Part shown: positions 14,931-24,692 of the stretch, one piece after another
Position numbering within the stretch: position 1 is the stretch's first letter
How the letters are laid out: every line of letters begins with the position of its first letter
DNA from: Candidatus Altimarinota bacterium
GTDB taxonomy: Bacteria; Patescibacteriota; Gracilibacteria; UBA1369; 2-02-FULL-48-14
Length of the DNA: 32,495 nucleotides
Reading direction: 5' to 3'
Assembly (NCBI GenBank): GCA_015485665.1
Contig: WFTC01000022.1
Location: 1-32,495 of the forward strand
The notes under the pieces: model-generated
What the model was told of the DNA's origin: nothing
Database searches by the model: none
The model's input: the letters and a program-made list of their open reading frames with translations, nothing else
Program-made: the position numbers and the translations under genes

Positions 14931-17183
14931 TCACTTGCGGCGGCGGCGCGTAAAGGCGGCTGCACTTATAGCGCTTAAAGTAATCAATAAACCTGTTCCT
15001 GCACCTGTTTGAGGTGTTTCCGGTGGTAAATTTTGGAATTTTGGTGCTGCATCCGGGTATGGTACATATTCTGAATTTTCAGGTGGTGGAGAAGTAACCG
15101 ATGTTTTTTTGGATAGTGGCATTGCCGCTATGGATTTGCTTGGAGGGCTTTCATTTCCTTCAATATCTATTGCTGATACAGCAAAATAGTAAGTTTCTCC
15201 ACCTGTTAAATTACTTATTCTCCAGCTGTTTGAGCTGTCTAAGGTTTCAGATGTTGCAAATAGTGATTCAGGAGTAGGTCCATAGTAAATTTTATAATTT
15301 ACAATAATTAGATCACTTTCCGGCACTTCCCAGCTGAGTAGCACGGACTCTTCATCTCCCATTGCTGTAAGCCCTTTCACTTCTCCCACATTTATTTCAA
15401 TGCTTTCTTCAATGTTTTGGGCTTCTTCAGTTGAAACTTCTTCAGTTGAAACTTCTTCATTTTGAGATTCCGCTTTTAAGATTAGTTGATCACGGTATTG
15501 CACGTCATTACCAAGAGGGTCAGTGAGAAGCACATCCAAGGAATAGTTACCTGCTTCTTCAGGCATGATTATACTGCCGACATACTTACCTGAAGTTTCA
15601 CTTTCCTCTAAAGTATAAATTTCATCTTCAAAAATCAAGCTTACATCATCTAAGCCACCTTCTGAAAGTACAGTAATTTCAACTTCACTTCCAATAGCTG
15701 CAATTTCAGCCGGATTAGCTTCAATACTCATAAGTTCCGGTGGTGTAGAATCAATTACAACACTCTCAGTTGCGGAGGTTTCTATTACTTGCAGAATATT
15801 TTCTTTTCCAGATTCATCTTCTTCAGTTTCCACAATTTCAACATAAATTTCATACTTTCCATCTTCAAGGTTTGAGATGCTGTATGAAAAACTTTCATCA
15901 AATTCAACTTCAGTGCGTCCAGCTTCCTCTTCATTAAGATAAATAATCACGCTATATCCGTATTGAGCGCCACCCTGAACTTCTATTGAGTTATTTGAAT
16001 AAGAGCCAGATGCTGGACTTATAAGTGTAAAATCACCCTCTCTATCAAAGTCATTTTCTACAAAATCACTGCCGTAATCAGGAGAGCTGGATCCTCCTTC
16101 AGTTAGCACTTCAACTTCAAATACGCCTTCAATACTGTATTTTTCAGTATCATTTACATTAATGGTTTGAATTCCCGGAGTTACAAACTTAAGTGCCAAA
16201 CTGAACGTATGACTCCCTCCATCTTCCGCCAAGAAGCTGTAATCATTGGGTAGGGTTGCACTTCCATCACTTGATGAGAAACGAATTGTGCCAGTATAGT
16301 CTTTGACTATGTTTTCATCTTTATCAAGGGCGCTTACTATAACATCAACATAGTCACCAACTTCCAAAGTTGTATCTGCTTGCCCCCCAAGTGATATATC
16401 AAAATGATCCAAAGGCCCTGAATCTGAAGAAAGTAAAATTGTATTATTTGAAGCTGTATTACTTTTCCTTCCAATTATGGAAATTTGAGGTTTTGCACGC
16501 AGTTTCTTTTGACTTTCAATATCCACTACAGTGAAGTTTACAGTGGAATTTTCTTCTTTTTCAGGTATAAGTGCATAAAATTTCATTTCTCCATTTTCAT
16601 CCGTCATGAAATCCTGAGAATAAACATTTACACTCGGATCGCTTGGAATCACTTGTACCATCCGTCCCGCCAAAGGGTTAAACAATTCATCTTTCAGTGC
16701 AACTTTCATTTCAAGATTTTCTCCTCCTTGTAGTACATTTTTATTTATTGAAAGTGTCGATTTACTCTCTGAGAGCTCCATCGGATAGACGCTAAAACTT
16801 TCTTTTGAGGAAAAGCTTGCAGATTCATCTTTTGGACGAACGGAAACATAGTATTCTCCGGACTTTTGAAGATAGGTGCTGTCAATTGTTAAAGTGGCGC
16901 GACCTTCTTTGTTGCTTGAGCTTTGGAAAGTAAATGTTTTGCCTGATGGGTCTTCAATTAACACTTCCAATTCGGAAAGAGGCTCCGTCTCAATTTCTAC
17001 TCTACCGGATGAGCCTGCGATTGTATTTTCAGCCAGTAAAATACTTGCTTTATAGCTTGTTTCAGATTTTATGTTTATTCCTGTATATTGACTTAATAGC
17101 GCCAATGCCATCAAAGATATCAGCAGAGGCTGAATCAGCTTTGCAAGTTTTAAAGAAGAAATCTTTACCATTTTCTTAGTCAT
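14931..17183 (-). CDS. Large surface protein with Ig/fibronectin-type repeats and LPXTG-like anchor
   Basis: This is a 750-residue exported protein. The N-terminus has a basic stretch followed by a hydrophobic helix (about 18-33). Several beta-sandwich-like segments follow, including bacterial-Ig/filamin-like repeats (for example VSALDKDENIVKDYTGTIRFSSSDG), a Thr/Glu-rich linker, and a fibronectin type III domain (about 610-690: GLTAMGDEESVLLSWEVP...GGETYYFAVSAIDIEGNESPPS). The C-terminus has a sorting signal: PQTGAG, a hydrophobic run (LLITLSAISAAAF) and RRRRK. The motif is TPQTG rather than LPxTG. It is probably anchored to the envelope and may bind other cells or surfaces. No sortase gene is in the window. 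It is divergent from the PKD-7TM gene. Confidence 0.85.
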   Translation of the reverse strand: MTKKMVKISSLKLAKLIQPLLISLMALALLSQYTGINIKSETSYKASILLAENTIAGSSGRVEIETEPLSELEVLIEDPSGKTFTFQSSSNKEGRATLTIDSTYLQKSGEYYVSVRPKDESASFSSKESFSVYPMELSESKSTLSINKNVLQGGENLEMKVALKDELFNPLAGRMVQVIPSDPSVNVYSQDFMTDENGEMKFYALIPEKEENSTVNFTVVDIESQKKLRAKPQISIIGRKSNTASNNTILLSSDSGPLDHFDISLGGQADTTLEVGDYVDVIVSALDKDENIVKDYTGTIRFSSSDGSATLPNDYSFLAEDGGSHTFSLALKFVTPGIQTINVNDTEKYSIEGVFEVEVLTEGGSSSPDYGSDFVENDFDREGDFTLISPASGSYSNNSIEVQGGAQYGYSVIIYLNEEEAGRTEVEFDESFSYSISNLEDGKYEIYVEIVETEEDESGKENILQVIETSATESVVIDSTPPELMSIEANPAEIAAIGSEVEITVLSEGGLDDVSLIFEDEIYTLEESETSGKYVGSIIMPEEAGNYSLDVLLTDPLGNDVQYRDQLILKAESQNEEVSTEEVSTEEAQNIEESIEINVGEVKGLTAMGDEESVLLSWEVPESDLIIVNYKIYYGPTPESLFATSETLDSSNSWRISNLTGGETYYFAVSAIDIEGNESPPSKSIAAMPLSKKTSVTSPPPENSEYVPYPDAAPKFQNLPPETPQTGAGTGLLITLSAISAAAFTRRRRK
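15426..15455 (-). repeat. Two 15-bp tandem repeats in the surface-protein gene
   Basis: TTCAGTTGAAACTTC occurs twice head to tail and encodes the doubled pentapeptide EVSTE in the linker before the fibronectin type III domain. It keeps the frame. Confidence 0.8.
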
Positions 17184-17304: not shown

Positions 17305-18810
17305 ATGATTAAAGCCTTTTTTGCTGCTTTCACCCTTGGTTTTCCCTTTTTCATGTGGGGGACTGCTTTTGCACTTTCAGATGAAGATCAAGGTACTTCA
17401 GTTGAAGTTGTTATTACTGCAGACTCCAGTGTGGAACTTAATAAAAAAATTATTTTTGATGCTAGTAATTCATTTATTGATGATTCTATAGATCAAGATT
17501 CTGTGAGTTATGAATGGTTTTACGGAGATGGAAACAGGGAGCAGGGTGTGGAGGTTGTGCATACTTATGCGGAGCCTGGAGAGTATGAAGTGACTTTGAT
17601 TGCAAGGACTGCTGAAGGAGAGCAATTTACTGCAATTCATGAGCTTTTGGTTTATGAGCGTTCCATCATGTTGATAAGTAATGTTGAAAATCGGCGAGAT
17701 CAAATTGAAAGTTTTGTTGAATCTGCCAGAGAACAGGATGTTTTGATTAATTTAGTTGAATCTTACACTTCTCAGTCTGAATTTTTGGCGGAAGAGCAGC
17801 TTCAAACTCGTGTAATTGAAAATTTATCCGCATTTAAAGATGCAAATACAATTGTCGTTTGGACTGAGGGAAGTTCTGGTTTAACATTATTTTCTAAGTT
17901 GCAGAGGACATTGAATGATCCCAATTTTTTTGTAGATAAAAATATTATTTTTATTTCAGACAGCAGTTTCGGTTCCATGGAGAATATTGCTCGTGGGGTT
18001 TATCAAAGCATTTCTCCAAAGAGCATTGTTCTGGCTCGCCCAGAATCTGTATGGGTTATTTTGGAGACGGAAAGTTTGGAAGATTATTTGAATCTTTTGG
18101 AAAGTAGAGAGATGCAATACAAGGAAATTAACTCTCAATTGCAACTCAGACCGTGGAATTTTTTAAGTGTTTTGGTGAATAATCTTATAAATAAAGGTGT
18201 TCCAAGTAATACAATCAGATTGGTTCTTATGCTTCCTGTGATTGTTACAGTTGTAGCTTTTATGAAGCAGGTTGTGGGCTTAGCAACCTTGGGCGTTTAT
18301 ACTCCTTCAATATTGGCACTATCTTTTATAGCTCTTGATTTAAGTTACGGATTAATAATTTTATTGGCGATTTTGAGTATAGGTACTTTAACTAGACTTT
18401 TCTTGAGGCGTTACAGGCTGCTTTATATTCCGAGAATGGCAATTTTGCTTACTACCGTAAGTTTGACCATTTTAATTTTACTCTATCTTGGCGCTTATCT
18501 TGATTTGTCAGCTGTGGTTGGAATTGCAGTCTTTCCAATGCTTATTATGAGTACAATGGTTGAGAAATTTGTAAGTATTCAAAGTGGTAAAGGGCTGAGA
18601 AGTGCTCTTACTTTGGTAGGTGAATCTGTTTTAGTCGCTGTTCTTTGTTATTTTGTGGCGGAATGGGCATGGTTAAAGGTATTTGTCTTGGGGCATCCTG
18701 AAGTTATTTTCTTATTTCTCTTTATGAATGTATTAATGGCACGCTGGACGGGACTTAGAGTTTTAGAGTATTTTCGTTTTAGAGAAATTATTCGTTACGC
18801 TGAAGAATAA
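17305..18810 (+). CDS. PKD-domain 7TM membrane protein (partner of ATP-grasp ligase)
   Basis: This is a 501-residue membrane protein. A signal/anchor helix (about 4-24) leads into a PKD domain (about 34-118, with FDASNSF, YEWFYGDG, HTYAEPGEYEVTL). An alpha/beta domain of unknown type follows (about 120-280), then seven membrane helices (about 303-475). The first helices, RLVLMLPVIVTVVAFMKQVVGLATLGVYTPSILALSF, fit the '7TM usually fused to an inactive transglutaminase' family. The usual transglutaminase-like domain is not obvious; PKD plus the alpha/beta domain takes its place. Proteins of this family sit beside RimK-like ligases, as here: the stop and the next start share TAATG. It is probably an envelope sensor or scaffold for the cytosolic ligase/peptidase. 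Confidence 0.8.
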   Translation: MIKAFFAAFTLGFPFFMWGTAFALSDEDQGTSVEVVITADSSVELNKKIIFDASNSFIDDSIDQDSVSYEWFYGDGNREQGVEVVHTYAEPGEYEVTLIARTAEGEQFTAIHELLVYERSIMLISNVENRRDQIESFVESAREQDVLINLVESYTSQSEFLAEEQLQTRVIENLSAFKDANTIVVWTEGSSGLTLFSKLQRTLNDPNFFVDKNIIFISDSSFGSMENIARGVYQSISPKSIVLARPESVWVILETESLEDYLNLLESREMQYKEINSQLQLRPWNFLSVLVNNLINKGVPSNTIRLVLMLPVIVTVVAFMKQVVGLATLGVYTPSILALSFIALDLSYGLIILLAILSIGTLTRLFLRRYRLLYIPRMAILLTTVSLTILILLYLGAYLDLSAVVGIAVFPMLIMSTMVEKFVSIQSGKGLRSALTLVGESVLVAVLCYFVAEWAWLKVFVLGHPEVIFLFLFMNVLMARWTGLRVLEYFRFREIIRYAEE

Positions 18811-21194
18811 TGGGATTATTACCTGATTTTGGCATTTTGGGGATAAATGCAAGAAATTTGCTTTATGTTCGCCCCTTCAATAAAAAAAAGGCGGTTCGTT
18901 TAGCGGATGATAAATTAAAATCAAAACATTTTTTATCTGCCAGAGATATTCCAGTACCTCGTTTATTTGCCGTTATAAGTACTCAAGAAGAATTGGAAAA
19001 ATTTGATTTTTCTTCTTTGCCATCCAGTTTTGTTTTAAAGCCAAACATGGGATTTGGTGGAGAGGGGATTCTTCCTATTGTGGGTAGAAAAGAAAAACAT
19101 TATGAAAGAGCAAGCGGCACTTTGACGTCTCAAGAAGAGCTTAAAGAGCACATAGGTGATATACTGGATGGACGTTTTAGTCTTTCTGGAGCTGCCGATA
19201 AGGCTTTTTTTGAACAGAGAATTATTTGCGATGATTCTATTGCACGTTTTGCTTACAAAGGATTGCCAGATATTCGCATAGTTGTGCATAATTTAATTCC
19301 GGTTATGGCGATGTTACGTTTGCCTACAAAAGAATCGGATGGAAAAGCTAATATTCATCAAGGTGCTTTAGGAGTTGGAATTGATATTGCCAGAGGCACT
19401 GCGACTCATATTGTTTCAAAGGGTAAAATTATTGATGAGGTGCCGGAGGTTGGTGAGATTAAAGGGCTTAAAATTCCTTATTGGGATGAGATGTTACATA
19501 TTGCTTCCAAAGTTCAATTAATAACAAATTTGGGTTATTTGGCTGTAGATATTGTTCTTGACAAAAATACAGGTCCAGTTTTGTTGGAGATTAATGCTCG
19601 TGCGGGTTTGACTGTGCAAATTGCAAATTTGGCGCCGTTGCGAAATCGTTTGGAGCGTATTCAAGGCGTGCAAGTTAAAACACCTGAAAAAGGAGTGCGT
19701 ATTGCGCAAGATATGTTTGGAAATAAATTGGAGAAAGAAGTGAAAAAAGTTATTGGCAAAAGTGTGGTTGGGCGTGAAGAGAAAATAACCATATTTGGTG
19801 AAGGTGGTTCACGTATTGTATGGGCTTCTATTAATCCTCTTTTAGAGAGGAGTATAATTGATAGAGAGTTGGCAAAAAATTTATTTCTTGATGAGTTTGA
19901 TGAAACTCTGGAATCAATGAAAATAAAATTCAATCTTGCGGATACAAGAGTTCAGACTTTAGTCAGGCTGGATGATTTATCCGGTAAAAATTTTGATATG
20001 GTTATTGGCAGGCGGGATTTAAATCGTTTTCTTATTGATCCATCCAAGGGACGTGAGCTATTAGGACGATTGCCAGAATTTTTGAAAGTGAAACAAAATT
20101 TTTCTCCCACAAAAAAAGTAAATTATAGACATTTGGATATGGAGCTTGTTTCAATAGATAGGCAAATTAAACTTTTATATCATTTAAGACCGATTAATCT
20201 TGAAGAGGAGAAGACAAAATTTTTAAAAGATAATTTTTATAATCCTCAATTTGAATATCCGAAATTGATGTTTGACTCTCTACACTTGAGGGAAAAAATT
20301 CAAAAGATCCAATCAAAAATAGAAGAAAAAAGTGTACTTGCTCAGCTTTTTCTGAGTAAAAGTAAAGAAATAGAGAAGAAAATAGAGCTGTTGGAGTTTA
20401 GAGGGACAGAGCGCTTTCAAAAAGCAAGCATTTTTCTTTATGGGGATGTTAGTTCAAAGCTTAAAAGAGCTGCACAAATAAAACTTAAGCAAAGACCTAA
20501 AAAGTTTACTAAACAAAAACAGCTAAGTACGGATGAGATAATTTATTCTTTTGAAGAAAGTTTTAAGAATTACGCATTATCTCAATGGAAAGTAAAAATA
20601 AAGAAGAATATGGTTGCTGTTGTTATGGCCAATAAAGGCAAGGCTTTACTGCTTAAGGATGGTGTTTCTTTTAGTAAGAATAGGCTTCGTATGGTTATAG
20701 CTCATGAAATTGAAACTCATATTTTGACTGCTGAAAACGGCAAAGCTCAATATTATCAACTTTTTAGCAGAGGTTTTGCTGATTATTTGGAAACGCAAGA
20801 AGGCTTGGCAATTTGGAATCAAGAGCAAGTTGCAATTTATGACTCGGAAAAGAACTATAAAGCTGCGATGTTAGTTTTTATTGTTGATTTTGCAAAAGAA
20901 CACTCTTTTTCAGAAACAGTTGATTATTGTAGGAAGCTTGGGATGTCTTTAAATCAGGCCTTTCAAACCACACTGAAAGTTAAACGTGGTTATGAGGATA
21001 CTGCTCAGGCAGGTGCTTTTACAAAAGATATTGTTTATATGTCCGGATATATTCAAATTAAAAATTTTATTGCAAAAGGAGGAGATATTAGGGATTTATA
21101 CTACGGTAAATATAATTTGAGAGATATAAAATTGATTAAACAGGTGCCTCATTTGATAGAGCCACGGCGTTTACCTCATTTTTTGGATCGTTGA
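18810..21194 (+). CDS. Fusion: RimK-like ATP-grasp ligase + degenerate retropepsin + DUF1704 (MATCAP-like) metallopeptidase
   Basis: This is a 794-residue cytosolic protein. Residues 1-305 form an ATP-grasp ligase of the 'alpha-L-glutamate ligase-related' type: Lys77 in FVLKPNMGFGGEG, and VLLEINARAG with Glu260 and Asn262 for Mg-ATP. Residues about 310-415 resemble RimB-type retropepsin ('ATP-dependent zinc protease'), ending in VIGRRDLNRFLIDPSKGR. The DTGA catalytic loop appears to be replaced by NPLL (342-345, before ERSIIDRELA), so it is probably inactive. Residues about 435-790 are DUF1704: HEIETH (His632, Glu633, His637) plus the QEGLA motif (663-667), the zinc site also found in MATCAP tyrosine carboxypeptidases. 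The start overlaps the upstream stop. The stop is TGA. The substrate is unknown. Confidence 0.85.
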   Translation: MGLLPDFGILGINARNLLYVRPFNKKKAVRLADDKLKSKHFLSARDIPVPRLFAVISTQEELEKFDFSSLPSSFVLKPNMGFGGEGILPIVGRKEKHYERASGTLTSQEELKEHIGDILDGRFSLSGAADKAFFEQRIICDDSIARFAYKGLPDIRIVVHNLIPVMAMLRLPTKESDGKANIHQGALGVGIDIARGTATHIVSKGKIIDEVPEVGEIKGLKIPYWDEMLHIASKVQLITNLGYLAVDIVLDKNTGPVLLEINARAGLTVQIANLAPLRNRLERIQGVQVKTPEKGVRIAQDMFGNKLEKEVKKVIGKSVVGREEKITIFGEGGSRIVWASINPLLERSIIDRELAKNLFLDEFDETLESMKIKFNLADTRVQTLVRLDDLSGKNFDMVIGRRDLNRFLIDPSKGRELLGRLPEFLKVKQNFSPTKKVNYRHLDMELVSIDRQIKLLYHLRPINLEEEKTKFLKDNFYNPQFEYPKLMFDSLHLREKIQKIQSKIEEKSVLAQLFLSKSKEIEKKIELLEFRGTERFQKASIFLYGDVSSKLKRAAQIKLKQRPKKFTKQKQLSTDEIIYSFEESFKNYALSQWKVKIKKNMVAVVMANKGKALLLKDGVSFSKNRLRMVIAHEIETHILTAENGKAQYYQLFSRGFADYLETQEGLAIWNQEQVAIYDSEKNYKAAMLVFIVDFAKEHSFSETVDYCRKLGMSLNQAFQTTLKVKRGYEDTAQAGAFTKDIVYMSGYIQIKNFIAKGGDIRDLYYGKYNLRDIKLIKQVPHLIEPRRLPHFLDR

Positions 21195-22275
21195 GGCACT
21201 TGAATATCATTAATGTCATGTCATCTTCTTGCCTATGTCCTTCCATAAATCTGCTGACATCTATGGCTATTTTTTCAAATAAATCCTCTGCTGAAATCTT
21301 GCTTTTTGCATGAAGTTTAAGAAATGATTCCAGTCTGTCTTTGCCATATATTTCACCAAGTACATTTTTTGCTTCCGTAATCCCATCTGTAAATAAGATT
21401 AGAAAATCTCCTTTTTGCATTTTTATTTCTTGTTTTTTTGTAAGAGCTCTATTGTCTTCAATCATTCCAAGAGCTATTCCACCTCCTTTTACGCTATATA
21501 TTTTTTCTTCTGAAGTATTTACATGTATTAAATATTCATGTCCCGCTCCAACCCATGAAAATTTATTATCATTCGGATCCCACTCCAATAGTATGAGAGT
21601 CATGAACATTGTTGCTTTTAGGTTTGGCTTTAGAAATCTGTTTATTTGAAAAAGCATTTCAAGTAAATCATTTTCAATAGCTATAAAAGTATCCATTAAA
21701 ATGTCCACCATTATCATGATCAATCCCGCCGGTAGTCCATGACCGGTTGAGTCGCCTATGTATGCAAAATAACGTTCATCTTTTTGATAAAAATTGTAAG
21801 CATCTCCTCCTATTTCTGATGCCGGTCTTGTTTTTGCTGCTATATCCAGTCCTGGTATTTCAGGTAATTGCTTTGGAAGCAATTCACGTTGAATGTTTTG
21901 AGCTGAATCAAGTTCTTTTTTTAAAGCTTCGTGCTCAATCACCTCTGAAGATATATTTTCCAGATTTCTGGTAACTTCATTGAAAAAATGAGCTAGAACT
22001 CCTATTTCATCTTTTCTTCTTGTAAGAATACGTCTGTAACTTTTGCCGGTAAGTAGGGCTTTCATTTCTAAAATAATTGTACGCATGGGGCGAGTAAGCC
22101 TGCTGTATATTATTAAAAGAGTCAAAAAAGTCATTGTGCCAAGACCTAAGGCAAGTTGAAGGATAAGTTTATCGCTCACAAAAGACATGGCAAAAGCCAC
22201 TCCATAAGAAAATACTCCGGCTATTAGAATCCAAAGAGAAATGTTGCGAAGAATGGATCGGCGTGTGAATGACAT
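21136..22275 (-). CDS. Second membrane-bound RsbU-like PP2C phosphatase with HAMP domain
   Basis: This 379-residue protein has two N-terminal helices (about 13-31 and 37-58) with almost no outside loop, so it probably senses the membrane or a partner protein. A HAMP domain (about 60-112; TRPMRTIILEMKALL, DEIGVLAHFFNEV) and a linker helix with the RELLPKQLP motif lead to a SpoIIE/PP2C domain. Metal motifs are intact: GGDAYN (Asp158), GDSTGHG (Asp175), FTDGITEAKN and QEDDMTLMI. It follows the MFS/HEAT gene by 14 bp, so both are in one operon. Its last 59 bp overlap the convergent ATP-grasp fusion gene. Confidence 0.92.
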   Translation of the reverse strand: MSFTRRSILRNISLWILIAGVFSYGVAFAMSFVSDKLILQLALGLGTMTFLTLLIIYSRLTRPMRTIILEMKALLTGKSYRRILTRRKDEIGVLAHFFNEVTRNLENISSEVIEHEALKKELDSAQNIQRELLPKQLPEIPGLDIAAKTRPASEIGGDAYNFYQKDERYFAYIGDSTGHGLPAGLIMIMVDILMDTFIAIENDLLEMLFQINRFLKPNLKATMFMTLILLEWDPNDNKFSWVGAGHEYLIHVNTSEEKIYSVKGGGIALGMIEDNRALTKKQEIKMQKGDFLILFTDGITEAKNVLGEIYGKDRLESFLKLHAKSKISAEDLFEKIAIDVSRFMEGHRQEDDMTLMIFKCLNDPKNEVNAVALSNEAPV

Positions 22276-22289
22276 CGCTCTTATTATAT

Positions 22290-24692
22290 TTACTGCTTCT
22301 TATGAGAAGCAAGAGCCAATTTGATTTGATGTGCTTCATGATGCGCATTAAGTTTTTGATATAGTTTGCCCAGCTTTTTTAAGCTGCTTTTATTTATTTC
22401 ACTTATGCTTGAATATTTTGAAATTATATTTGCGACTTCTTGTGAAAAATGATTCTGCATTGCTTGCGTGATTTTTCTTTTATAATTTTTACTGAAAGAT
22501 TTAATTATCAGATTCATATTTTCATGCCATGGATGAGATGGGTTTTCAAATGCATGAATAAACAAAGGAATTACAGTTTCATCTCCAATTTTTCCCAAAG
22601 CCAGTAAAGCTGCATTTTGCATCTCTTTATTTTTTGATTTTAGGGATTTTTTTAAAAAATCAAGCCCATCTTTAAATTTAACTTCACCACATATATAAAC
22701 TGCCATCAAGTTAGTTTTTTCTTTCGGACTTTCTATCATTTGTTTTAAGAGGTGTGTTAATTCTTTTCTCATTTCTTTAAATTGCCAAAGAGCAATAATG
22801 GAAGCTCCTCTAATTCTAGTTTTTTTGCTCATTAAAAAGTTTTGCATGTAATGTTTTAGATTAGGATCTTTAAAGAGTTTGAACATTCTTATGTAATCTT
22901 CAATATTTTTGGATTTATTATTAAGTTTATTTAATAAAAAATTTGTGGCTTCTTTCGGGGAAAATGCATAAAAACACTGTATCAATTCTTCATAAATTTC
23001 TTTATTTTCCACTTTTTCCAAAGCAGATTTAAGAGTAGTTACGATTCTATGAGCTGTGAAAGGCTCTTGCATGAATTGATTGTCTTCACTGAAGCTTTGT
23101 AAAGCTTGGATTGCTTCAAGACAAAGTTTACTGCCTGAATTATTGATTATATTCAGTATTGCATTAATACTTGCAGGATCTTGGCGCTCAGATAAAGTTT
23201 TGAGTATGTTTTCTTTTATTATTTTAGGTTCGTAATCTCTGTTTAAAATTTTTAAAAGTGCCGGCGTGAAGTGTGTGTGTCCGTTTTGAGCTAAAATTTC
23301 AATTGCATTTAGTCTTGTTGGCATATCCATCTTTTTACTCAAATTATATTCTGACATCTCAGTATATTTTCTTATCAAACGATAGGTGATAAAACTCATT
23401 GTGATTGTGGCTGTTATAAGTATCAAATTAATCATTAAAGTTTGATAAATACCTTCAAAATTTAAAGCTATTAATATAATTAAGACTGTCCCCAAAATAG
23501 CCCCCATCGGCTTGACAACACCTTGCATAAATTCTTTAACCTCATCTCTCATTTGGTTTGGAATTGCATAATAGCTTGAATCATAGCTATTTTTGAAAAT
23601 TAAACCTGTAATTTCATAACCTCCTCTGGTGAACAAAGCTGTTAAAAAATTGAATTTTAATGTTAATGCTATAAGATTTAACATGCTTATTATCGGATGT
23701 ATGAGCATAACAGGTATTACACCAAGAGCTTCTATAAGTCTGCTTGCAACAATCAATTGAATTATTAAAGCAGCAGCATTGAAAATAATATGTAAAGTCC
23801 CCAATTTTTTAGTAAGTTCTTGTTCGTAATATATACTTTGATCTTTTATGGAAAGTTCATCTGCAAGAATTACATTTTCATCTGTATGTTCGGAAAGTAG
23901 TGTTTCTTCTTGCATGGAATATACTTCTTGTTGAATTGCTTTTGTATATTGGAATTCCACCATATTCATTATGCTCCAATGCAATAAAACTATGATCATT
24001 ATTCCTTTTAAAAAAGGTATTCTTTTCAGTTTCTTCATACTTTCTTTAAATGTCATTTTTCTTGGCAGTGTGCTTTGTACATTTACTAATTTTGGAACCT
24101 TGAGAGTTTTTGTGTTAAAAAACAGTACGATAGGTATAATCAAAAGAAGAGATATTGCCCATATAAGTATGAATTTATATGCCGGAATAGTTTCAGAAAA
24201 GATGCTTAAAATAAAACCTCCAACAATTGCTCCTATTGTTTCTGCAGACTCTATAATTGGGAAGCTTCTTTGGCTTTCCAAAGGTGTGAATAGATCTTCA
24301 TTAAATAAAGAAATAAGTATATTTAATTGTGCCAAGAAGACAGACTCAACAATTATCAATAAAGAGAAAAAGATGAAGCTGCTTTTTTGCATAAAAACTA
24401 TTGATGTAATCAACATTGCTGCAGCCAATAAAACAATTATGCTGATTAAGAGTTCACGCTGTATTTTTCTTAATAAATGTCTGAAAAAAATGCTACCAAG
24501 CATAACCATTACGGCATTTATCAAAAAGAGCAAAGGTAATAAATTTATACCTACTTTAGTTAAAAAAGTGGCAATCAGTACGCTCCAGCCAAGGATAAAA
24601 CCGAATCTGCTCAAAAATAACATACTCCATCCAACAAGTACTCGAGGCCATTCTTTTTCACTTATATTGAATACTTGACTTAGTTTATTCAT
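22290..24692 (-). CDS. MFS/NTT-like multi-spanning membrane protein with C-terminal HEAT repeats
   Basis: This is an 800-residue protein. About 12 hydrophobic helices fill residues 15-455 in an MFS-like layout, split by a charged loop near residues 255-290. The segment NEDLFTPLESQRSFPIIESAETIGAIVGGFILS resembles the central block of ATP/ADP translocase-type (NTT/Npt1) carriers. Residues about 465-780 are helical HEAT-like repeats (for example ALLALGKIGDETVIPLFIHAFENP). Membrane carriers with HEAT tails are known for NTT relatives, but a nucleotide substrate cannot be shown here. It heads an operon with a RsbU-like phosphatase, so it may serve as its sensor. Its promoter overlaps that of murJ. 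Confidence 0.75.
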   Translation of the reverse strand: MNKLSQVFNISEKEWPRVLVGWSMLFLSRFGFILGWSVLIATFLTKVGINLLPLLFLINAVMVMLGSIFFRHLLRKIQRELLISIIVLLAAAMLITSIVFMQKSSFIFFSLLIIVESVFLAQLNILISLFNEDLFTPLESQRSFPIIESAETIGAIVGGFILSIFSETIPAYKFILIWAISLLLIIPIVLFFNTKTLKVPKLVNVQSTLPRKMTFKESMKKLKRIPFLKGIMIIVLLHWSIMNMVEFQYTKAIQQEVYSMQEETLLSEHTDENVILADELSIKDQSIYYEQELTKKLGTLHIIFNAAALIIQLIVASRLIEALGVIPVMLIHPIISMLNLIALTLKFNFLTALFTRGGYEITGLIFKNSYDSSYYAIPNQMRDEVKEFMQGVVKPMGAILGTVLIILIALNFEGIYQTLMINLILITATITMSFITYRLIRKYTEMSEYNLSKKMDMPTRLNAIEILAQNGHTHFTPALLKILNRDYEPKIIKENILKTLSERQDPASINAILNIINNSGSKLCLEAIQALQSFSEDNQFMQEPFTAHRIVTTLKSALEKVENKEIYEELIQCFYAFSPKEATNFLLNKLNNKSKNIEDYIRMFKLFKDPNLKHYMQNFLMSKKTRIRGASIIALWQFKEMRKELTHLLKQMIESPKEKTNLMAVYICGEVKFKDGLDFLKKSLKSKNKEMQNAALLALGKIGDETVIPLFIHAFENPSHPWHENMNLIIKSFSKNYKRKITQAMQNHFSQEVANIISKYSSISEINKSSLKKLGKLYQKLNAHHEAHQIKLALASHKKQ

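Follow-up and report, generated by a model that had tools for sequence, protein, structure and literature searches.

Can a single bacterial protein both add an amino acid chain to an acceptor and take it off again? The question is raised by a gene in the window analyzed here, a stretch of 32,495 nucleotides from Candidatus Altimarinota bacterium (contig WFTC01000022.1). An initial annotation of the window proposed that this gene joins an ATP-grasp ligase, a degenerate retropepsin and a DUF1704 peptidase in one chain and that it may hold a write/erase cycle, the bacterial counterpart of tyrosination. The host is an ultra-small (CPR) bacterium.

The fused gene

The gene is located at 18810..21194 on the plus strand and encodes an RloC-like ligase, an RloA-like retropepsin remnant and a MATCAP/DUF1704 peptidase. 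It starts with ATG, has no internal stops and encodes 794 amino acids in a single frame, and the ORF check confirmed one intact protein combining three domains. No signal peptide was found in the chain, including its retropepsin part. The AlphaFold model, built with 46 homologues, had a mean pLDDT of 88 and a pTM of 0.51. The low pTM despite the high pLDDT means that the single domains are reliable and that their mutual arrangement is not. In a Foldseek search with the whole model human MATCAP (7z5g) ranked first and RimK (5zct) next. Human MATCAP1 was the sole confident PDB sequence match (E 5.4e-12). The single frame, the Pfam and NCBIfam matches and the predicted RimK-like, RloA-like and MATCAP folds agree with the three-part composition first proposed. 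The objection that a frameshift hides separate genes does not hold, as the frame is intact here and the fusion is kept in dozens of genomes. The same conservation excludes misassembly or a chance joining of domains.

The ATP-grasp ligase domain comprises residues 15-285 (18852..19664, +). It matched Pfam ATPgrasp_ST (PF14397; E 2e-69, 234 bits against a cut-off of 31.4) and, by fold, RimK (5zct). NCBIfam rimK_rel_E_lig (TIGR02291) matched at E 5e-89 with 298.4 bits against a curated cut-off of 314.2, which marks a clear homologue under the equivalog line. The motif residues named in the initial annotation, K77 (19038-19040) and E260-N262 (19587-19595, both +), are genuine, and the nucleotide and Mg residues K77, D247, E260 and N262 did not vary among the 46 homologues. 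Both the fold and these residues place the domain in the RimK-like ATP-grasp superfamily, and it is of the RloC/TIGR02291 type.

The MATCAP/DUF1704 metallopeptidase domain comprises residues 439-794 (20124..21191, +). Within it the Pfam MATCAP model (PF08014) spans residues 471-779 at E 3.6e-56, with 191 bits against a cut-off of 27, and human MATCAP (7z5g) was matched both by sequence (5e-12) and by fold. NCBIfam QEGLA (TIGR02421) matched at E 9e-60, with 202.9 bits against 338.65, below the equivalog cut-off. The HEIETH metal-binding motif (H632-H637, 20703..20720, +) and QEGLA with the third metal ligand E664 (20796..20810, +) were present as annotated; H632, E633, H637 and E664 were invariant in the 46 homologues. 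The model score and the HExxxH...EG metal site both place the domain in the MATCAP family, and it is a predicted metallocarboxypeptidase. The related human enzyme TMCP1 is activated by Mn and Co and inhibited by Zn (PMC12612596), so the working metal may not be zinc. In searches whose query lengths differ, the CPR fused protein matched human MATCAP1 at 5e-12 and a Vibrio QEGLA protein matched it at 1.4e-6, whereas a Sinorhizobium QEGLA protein gave no match (L152 and L154 being the proteobacterial loci compared).

The middle domain comprises residues 312-418 (19743..20063, +). Searched alone, even as a profile, this segment had no Pfam or PDB sequence match. Aspartyl-protease models were matched by the middle region of 9-10 of 29 relatives, and PF05618 scored above its gathering score in three of the seven unfused relatives tested (L213, L170 and L191). 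Modeled alone, the domain had a pLDDT of 89.8 and a pTM of 0.82. Its best PDB fold matches were RloA of P. fluorescens and RloA2 of P. aeruginosa (9g58 RloA, 9g59 RloA2), and it has the retropepsin fold of the RloA/RimB retropepsins. On the scored alignment N342-P-L stands where DTG is expected, with Asn342 at the catalytic Asp position (19833-19835, +), and both polyglutamate-binding Arg positions are lost. As DTG and both arginines are missing, the domain is a remnant and not an active RloA/RimB member, which upholds its earlier description as a degenerate, RimB-like segment.

Distribution of the fusion

The comparison covered 148 genomes from the class of the host. Of these, 105 carried MATCAP, 103 the ligase (counting strong matches alone) and 97 the 7TM domain of the partner gene described below. 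The 7TM domain occurred without the ligase in none of the 148. MATCAP and ligase co-occurred in 100 (Fisher 5.5e-27, a value that ignores relatedness between genomes). In 97 of the 148 the two shared a strand and were separated by a conserved 430-859 nt, most of these being one open frame of about 770-850 amino acids, and the fusion was kept in most of the 105 MATCAP-bearing relatives. The search for the same fusion in other CPR genomes that had been proposed earlier thus found it widely. TGA-recoded genomes carried the fusion when read under code 25; the separate ligase and MATCAP genes seen in them were an artefact of the standard code. Named matches came from Peregrinibacteria, Peribacteria, Gracilibacteria and some Parcubacteria and Magasanikbacteria, and the fusion is conserved across Peregrinibacteria/Gracilibacteria. 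Fusion genes typical of CPR were also present on contigs L106 and L141, labelled Kiritimatiellales and Nitrospirae, probably through misbinning.

Sampling of the phylum beyond this class showed the ligase in 72 genomes, MATCAP in 48 and both in 34 (Fisher 2.5e-14, again ignoring relatedness). There the ligase was as a rule joined to the retropepsin alone, and MATCAP was a separate gene, usually a neighbor. Loci L155-L160 had MATCAP as the adjacent gene after the ligase, on the same strand and often overlapping. One family had MATCAP 4-8 kb distant on the opposite strand. A 922-amino-acid variant at L170:5411-8176 (-) consisted of an RloC-like ligase, an intact retropepsin and a second ATP-grasp domain.

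A shared substrate does not follow from fusion by itself, and the domains could have been joined for co-regulation or scaffolding alone, with unrelated substrates. This is very improbable, as the co-occurrence and neighborhood persist where the parts are unfused. The rhizobia also speak against it, as their DUF1704 gene has another kind of ATP-grasp gene for a partner: the DUF1704 gene of Sinorhizobium, Shinella and Aminobacter is flanked by an N-formylglutamate amidohydrolase gene on one side and a glutathione-synthetase-like ATP-grasp gene on the other. The proteobacterial QEGLA proteins (TIGR02421) share the DUF1704 domain with the fused protein, but the rhizobial ligase is from another ATP-grasp family and the genes are separate. 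This is a second, independent ligase/DUF1704 pairing. The DUF1704 loci of Vibrio, Pseudoalteromonas and Legionella had no annotated ligase neighbor.

Partner gene and neighboring genes

The gene upstream (17305..18810, +) shares one base with the start of the fused gene. It encodes an N-terminal PKD domain (17410-17625, +; PF18911, E 8e-15) and a C-terminal 7TM_transglut domain (18208-18789, +). The latter domain usually occurs fused to an inactive transglutaminase. The match to PF14402 (E 4e-35) places the partner in that domain family. With the RloB model NF052267 only the 7TM part aligned (78.7 against 900 bits), and the partner is not a full-length RloB. In 74 related genomes a 7TM gene was located upstream of the ligase on the same strand, mostly within 190 nt.

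The divergent neighbor at 14931-17183 (-) encodes an Ig-like/fn3 surface protein that terminates in a tail with PxTG-like, hydrophobic and RRRRK parts; of the related loci compared, 17 had a homologue. It is a possible surface partner or candidate acceptor. On the other side, within 21136-24692 (-), a SpoIIE-type phosphatase gene overlaps the 3' end of the fused gene with its own 3' end; next comes a gene for an MFS-like transporter with fused HEAT repeats. Both genes have homologues in about 16-17 related loci.

Comparison with known systems

The ligase family, 7TM domain, retropepsin fold and gene linkage all resemble the published rlo operon RloA-RloB-RloC of Pseudomonas aeruginosa (PMC12239564). 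Legionella adelaidensis (L153) has adjacent retropepsin, inactive-transglutaminase-7TM and ligase genes, which is the published rlo arrangement (PMC12239564). Unlike in rlo, the ligase and retropepsin form one chain here with the ligase first, the retropepsin is decayed and lacks a signal peptide, the partner has a PKD domain in place of the transglutaminase part, and MATCAP is extra. The locus is the rlo gene set of Pseudomonas and Legionella, rearranged, plus MATCAP. To our knowledge the RloB-RloC pair has no known product, even in Pseudomonas.

A writer and eraser in a single protein has a precedent in the RimBK hybrid of Desulfotalea psychrophila, in which a retropepsin and a RimK-type ligase share one chain (PMC11957791). 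There, however, RimB is N-terminal and proteolytically active, MATCAP is absent and the ligase is a RimK, not one of the RloC type. Human MATCAP1/TMCP1 and TMCP2 have a homologous peptidase domain with the HExxxH and EGLA site and a conserved KRG...DT motif. They differ in having no ligase fusion, in acting on tubulin tails and in being counteracted by separate ligases (TTL and TTLLs). Judged by sequence, the CPR MATCAP domain may be a closer relative of the eukaryotic enzyme than the proteobacterial QEGLA proteins are.

Retropepsin decay

The retropepsin columns of 116 aligned CPR proteins were scored. In P. aeruginosa RloA, R114 and R137 lie 66 and 89 residues after D48, and loss of these arginines weakened polyglutamate cutting the most (PMC12239564); Legionella RloA carries Arg at precisely these two offsets, D+66 and D+89. 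Proteins from genomes without MATCAP kept DTG in 38/38 and the full set of DTG and both arginines in 37/38. Where MATCAP was fused, DTG remained in 8/50 (counting Asp with Gly or Ala at +2) and the full set in 0/50. With MATCAP unfused in the operon both DTG and the full set were found in 5/8, and with MATCAP elsewhere or on the opposite strand DTG was found in 20/20 and the full set in 7/20. Replacement is not automatic, since five of the eight operon-linked MATCAPs and all 20 unlinked ones coexist with intact DTG. A tree of the ligase domain only placed the losses in about three groups, namely the main fused clade, L172/L174 and L156-L158, in all of which MATCAP is in cis. About three independent losses give too few pairs for a sign test to reach 0.05, and the decay that accompanies MATCAP in cis is therefore a consistent pattern and no proof.

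The pattern suggests that both peptidases share a substrate, which would be a glutamate chain. It also bears on the alternative that MATCAP is a maturation peptidase, one that trims a precursor protein so that the acceptor is accessible when the ligase comes to extend it, with no erasing of the ligase product. Both the fusion and the order of the genes would suit an enzyme pair that works on one substrate, whether ligation or trimming comes first, and MATCAP enzymes accept several C-terminal residues (PMC10499314). The decay of a glutamate-cutting retropepsin in proteins to which MATCAP is fused speaks against such a role, and we regard it as rather unlikely.

Discussion

The reading favored here, at moderate probability, is that the fused protein is an ATP-driven glutamate writer and eraser in which the retropepsin eraser was replaced by the MATCAP metallopeptidase. 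It draws on the RimK-like ligase motifs and metal site, both invariant, on the RloA fold of the middle domain, on the co-occurrence of MATCAP, ligase and 7TM gene, on the adjacency of the unfused parts in CPR genomes and on the decay of the retropepsin where MATCAP is in cis. The protein would be a self-contained writer and eraser of amino acid chains, probably on the inner face of the membrane. Its ATP-grasp domain would spend ATP adding glutamates to a protein tail, a side chain or a free peptide, and the MATCAP metallocarboxypeptidase would take them off again. The retropepsin would be the original eraser, since decayed to a structural or allosteric module. RimK adds glutamates and RimB both removes them and stimulates RimK (PMC11957791), and an allosteric role for the remnant can be likened to this stimulation. 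The 7TM partner may anchor the enzyme, sense the state of the envelope or pass the product on. RloC glutamate ligation is a predicted activity, in Pseudomonas as well as here. Pseudomonas RloA is secreted and the chain here has no signal peptide, which counts against the writer/eraser reading.

Co-occurrence, adjacency and intact motifs lend support to the write/erase idea of the initial annotation, with the activity itself predicted, but tyrosine was probably the wrong amino acid. Human MATCAP1 removes Tyr, the TTL fold is ATP-grasp and one relative (L166) had a weak TTL-family score (E 7e-4). The ligase nevertheless resembles RimK/RloC much more closely than TTL, and the eraser with which it was ancestrally paired is specific for glutamate, so that a literal tyrosination/detyrosination cycle is highly improbable. 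Glutamate is more likely because the ligase is RimK/RloC-like, RloA (PMC12239564) and RimB (PMC11957791) cleave polyglutamate and the two human TMCPs likewise trim chains of it, with a preference of TMCP2 for Glu over Tyr (PMC10499314).

The ligase product could also be free polyglutamate or another small peptide that is exported or used by the 7TM protein, with the peptidase setting its length or recycling it and no protein being tagged. RimK yields free poly-alpha-glutamate in the presence of RimB (PMC11957791), the 7TM gene is tightly linked and the rlo phenotypes are osmotic and envelope-related (PMC12239564). However, the 7TM domain is without a demonstrated transport fold, and the MATCAP relatives of known substrate work on protein tails. 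This alternative is unlikely.

The system was initially described as a candidate undescribed one. For the ligase, retropepsin and 7TM parts this does not stand, as they match those of the published rlo operon, and RimB-RimK hybrids have also been published. MATCAP as the eraser in an rlo-type system does appear to be a new element. A literature search found no paper linking DUF1704 with ATP-grasp, RimBK or rlo, the likeliest earlier survey (Iyer et al. 2009) lying outside its reach, and no function for bacterial DUF1704/QEGLA proteins was found in the literature searched.

The locus connects these proteins with the RloB-RloC pair, and the retropepsin decay pattern predicts one reaction, the removal by MATCAP of glutamate chains built by the attached ligase. 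As one chain carries both writer and eraser, a single purified protein would suffice to address the question. The bacterial relatives of the human tubulin-tail enzyme thereby gain a testable job, glutamate-chain trimming. Tentatively, and short of an even chance, bacterial MATCAP/DUF1704 proteins would be polyglutamate erasers that took the place of an unrelated aspartic protease in a system of glutamate tags, and eukaryotic tubulin-tail trimming would share its ancestry with a bacterial glutamylation cycle. The finding may thus bear on the origin of the eukaryotic tubulin-tail carboxypeptidases.
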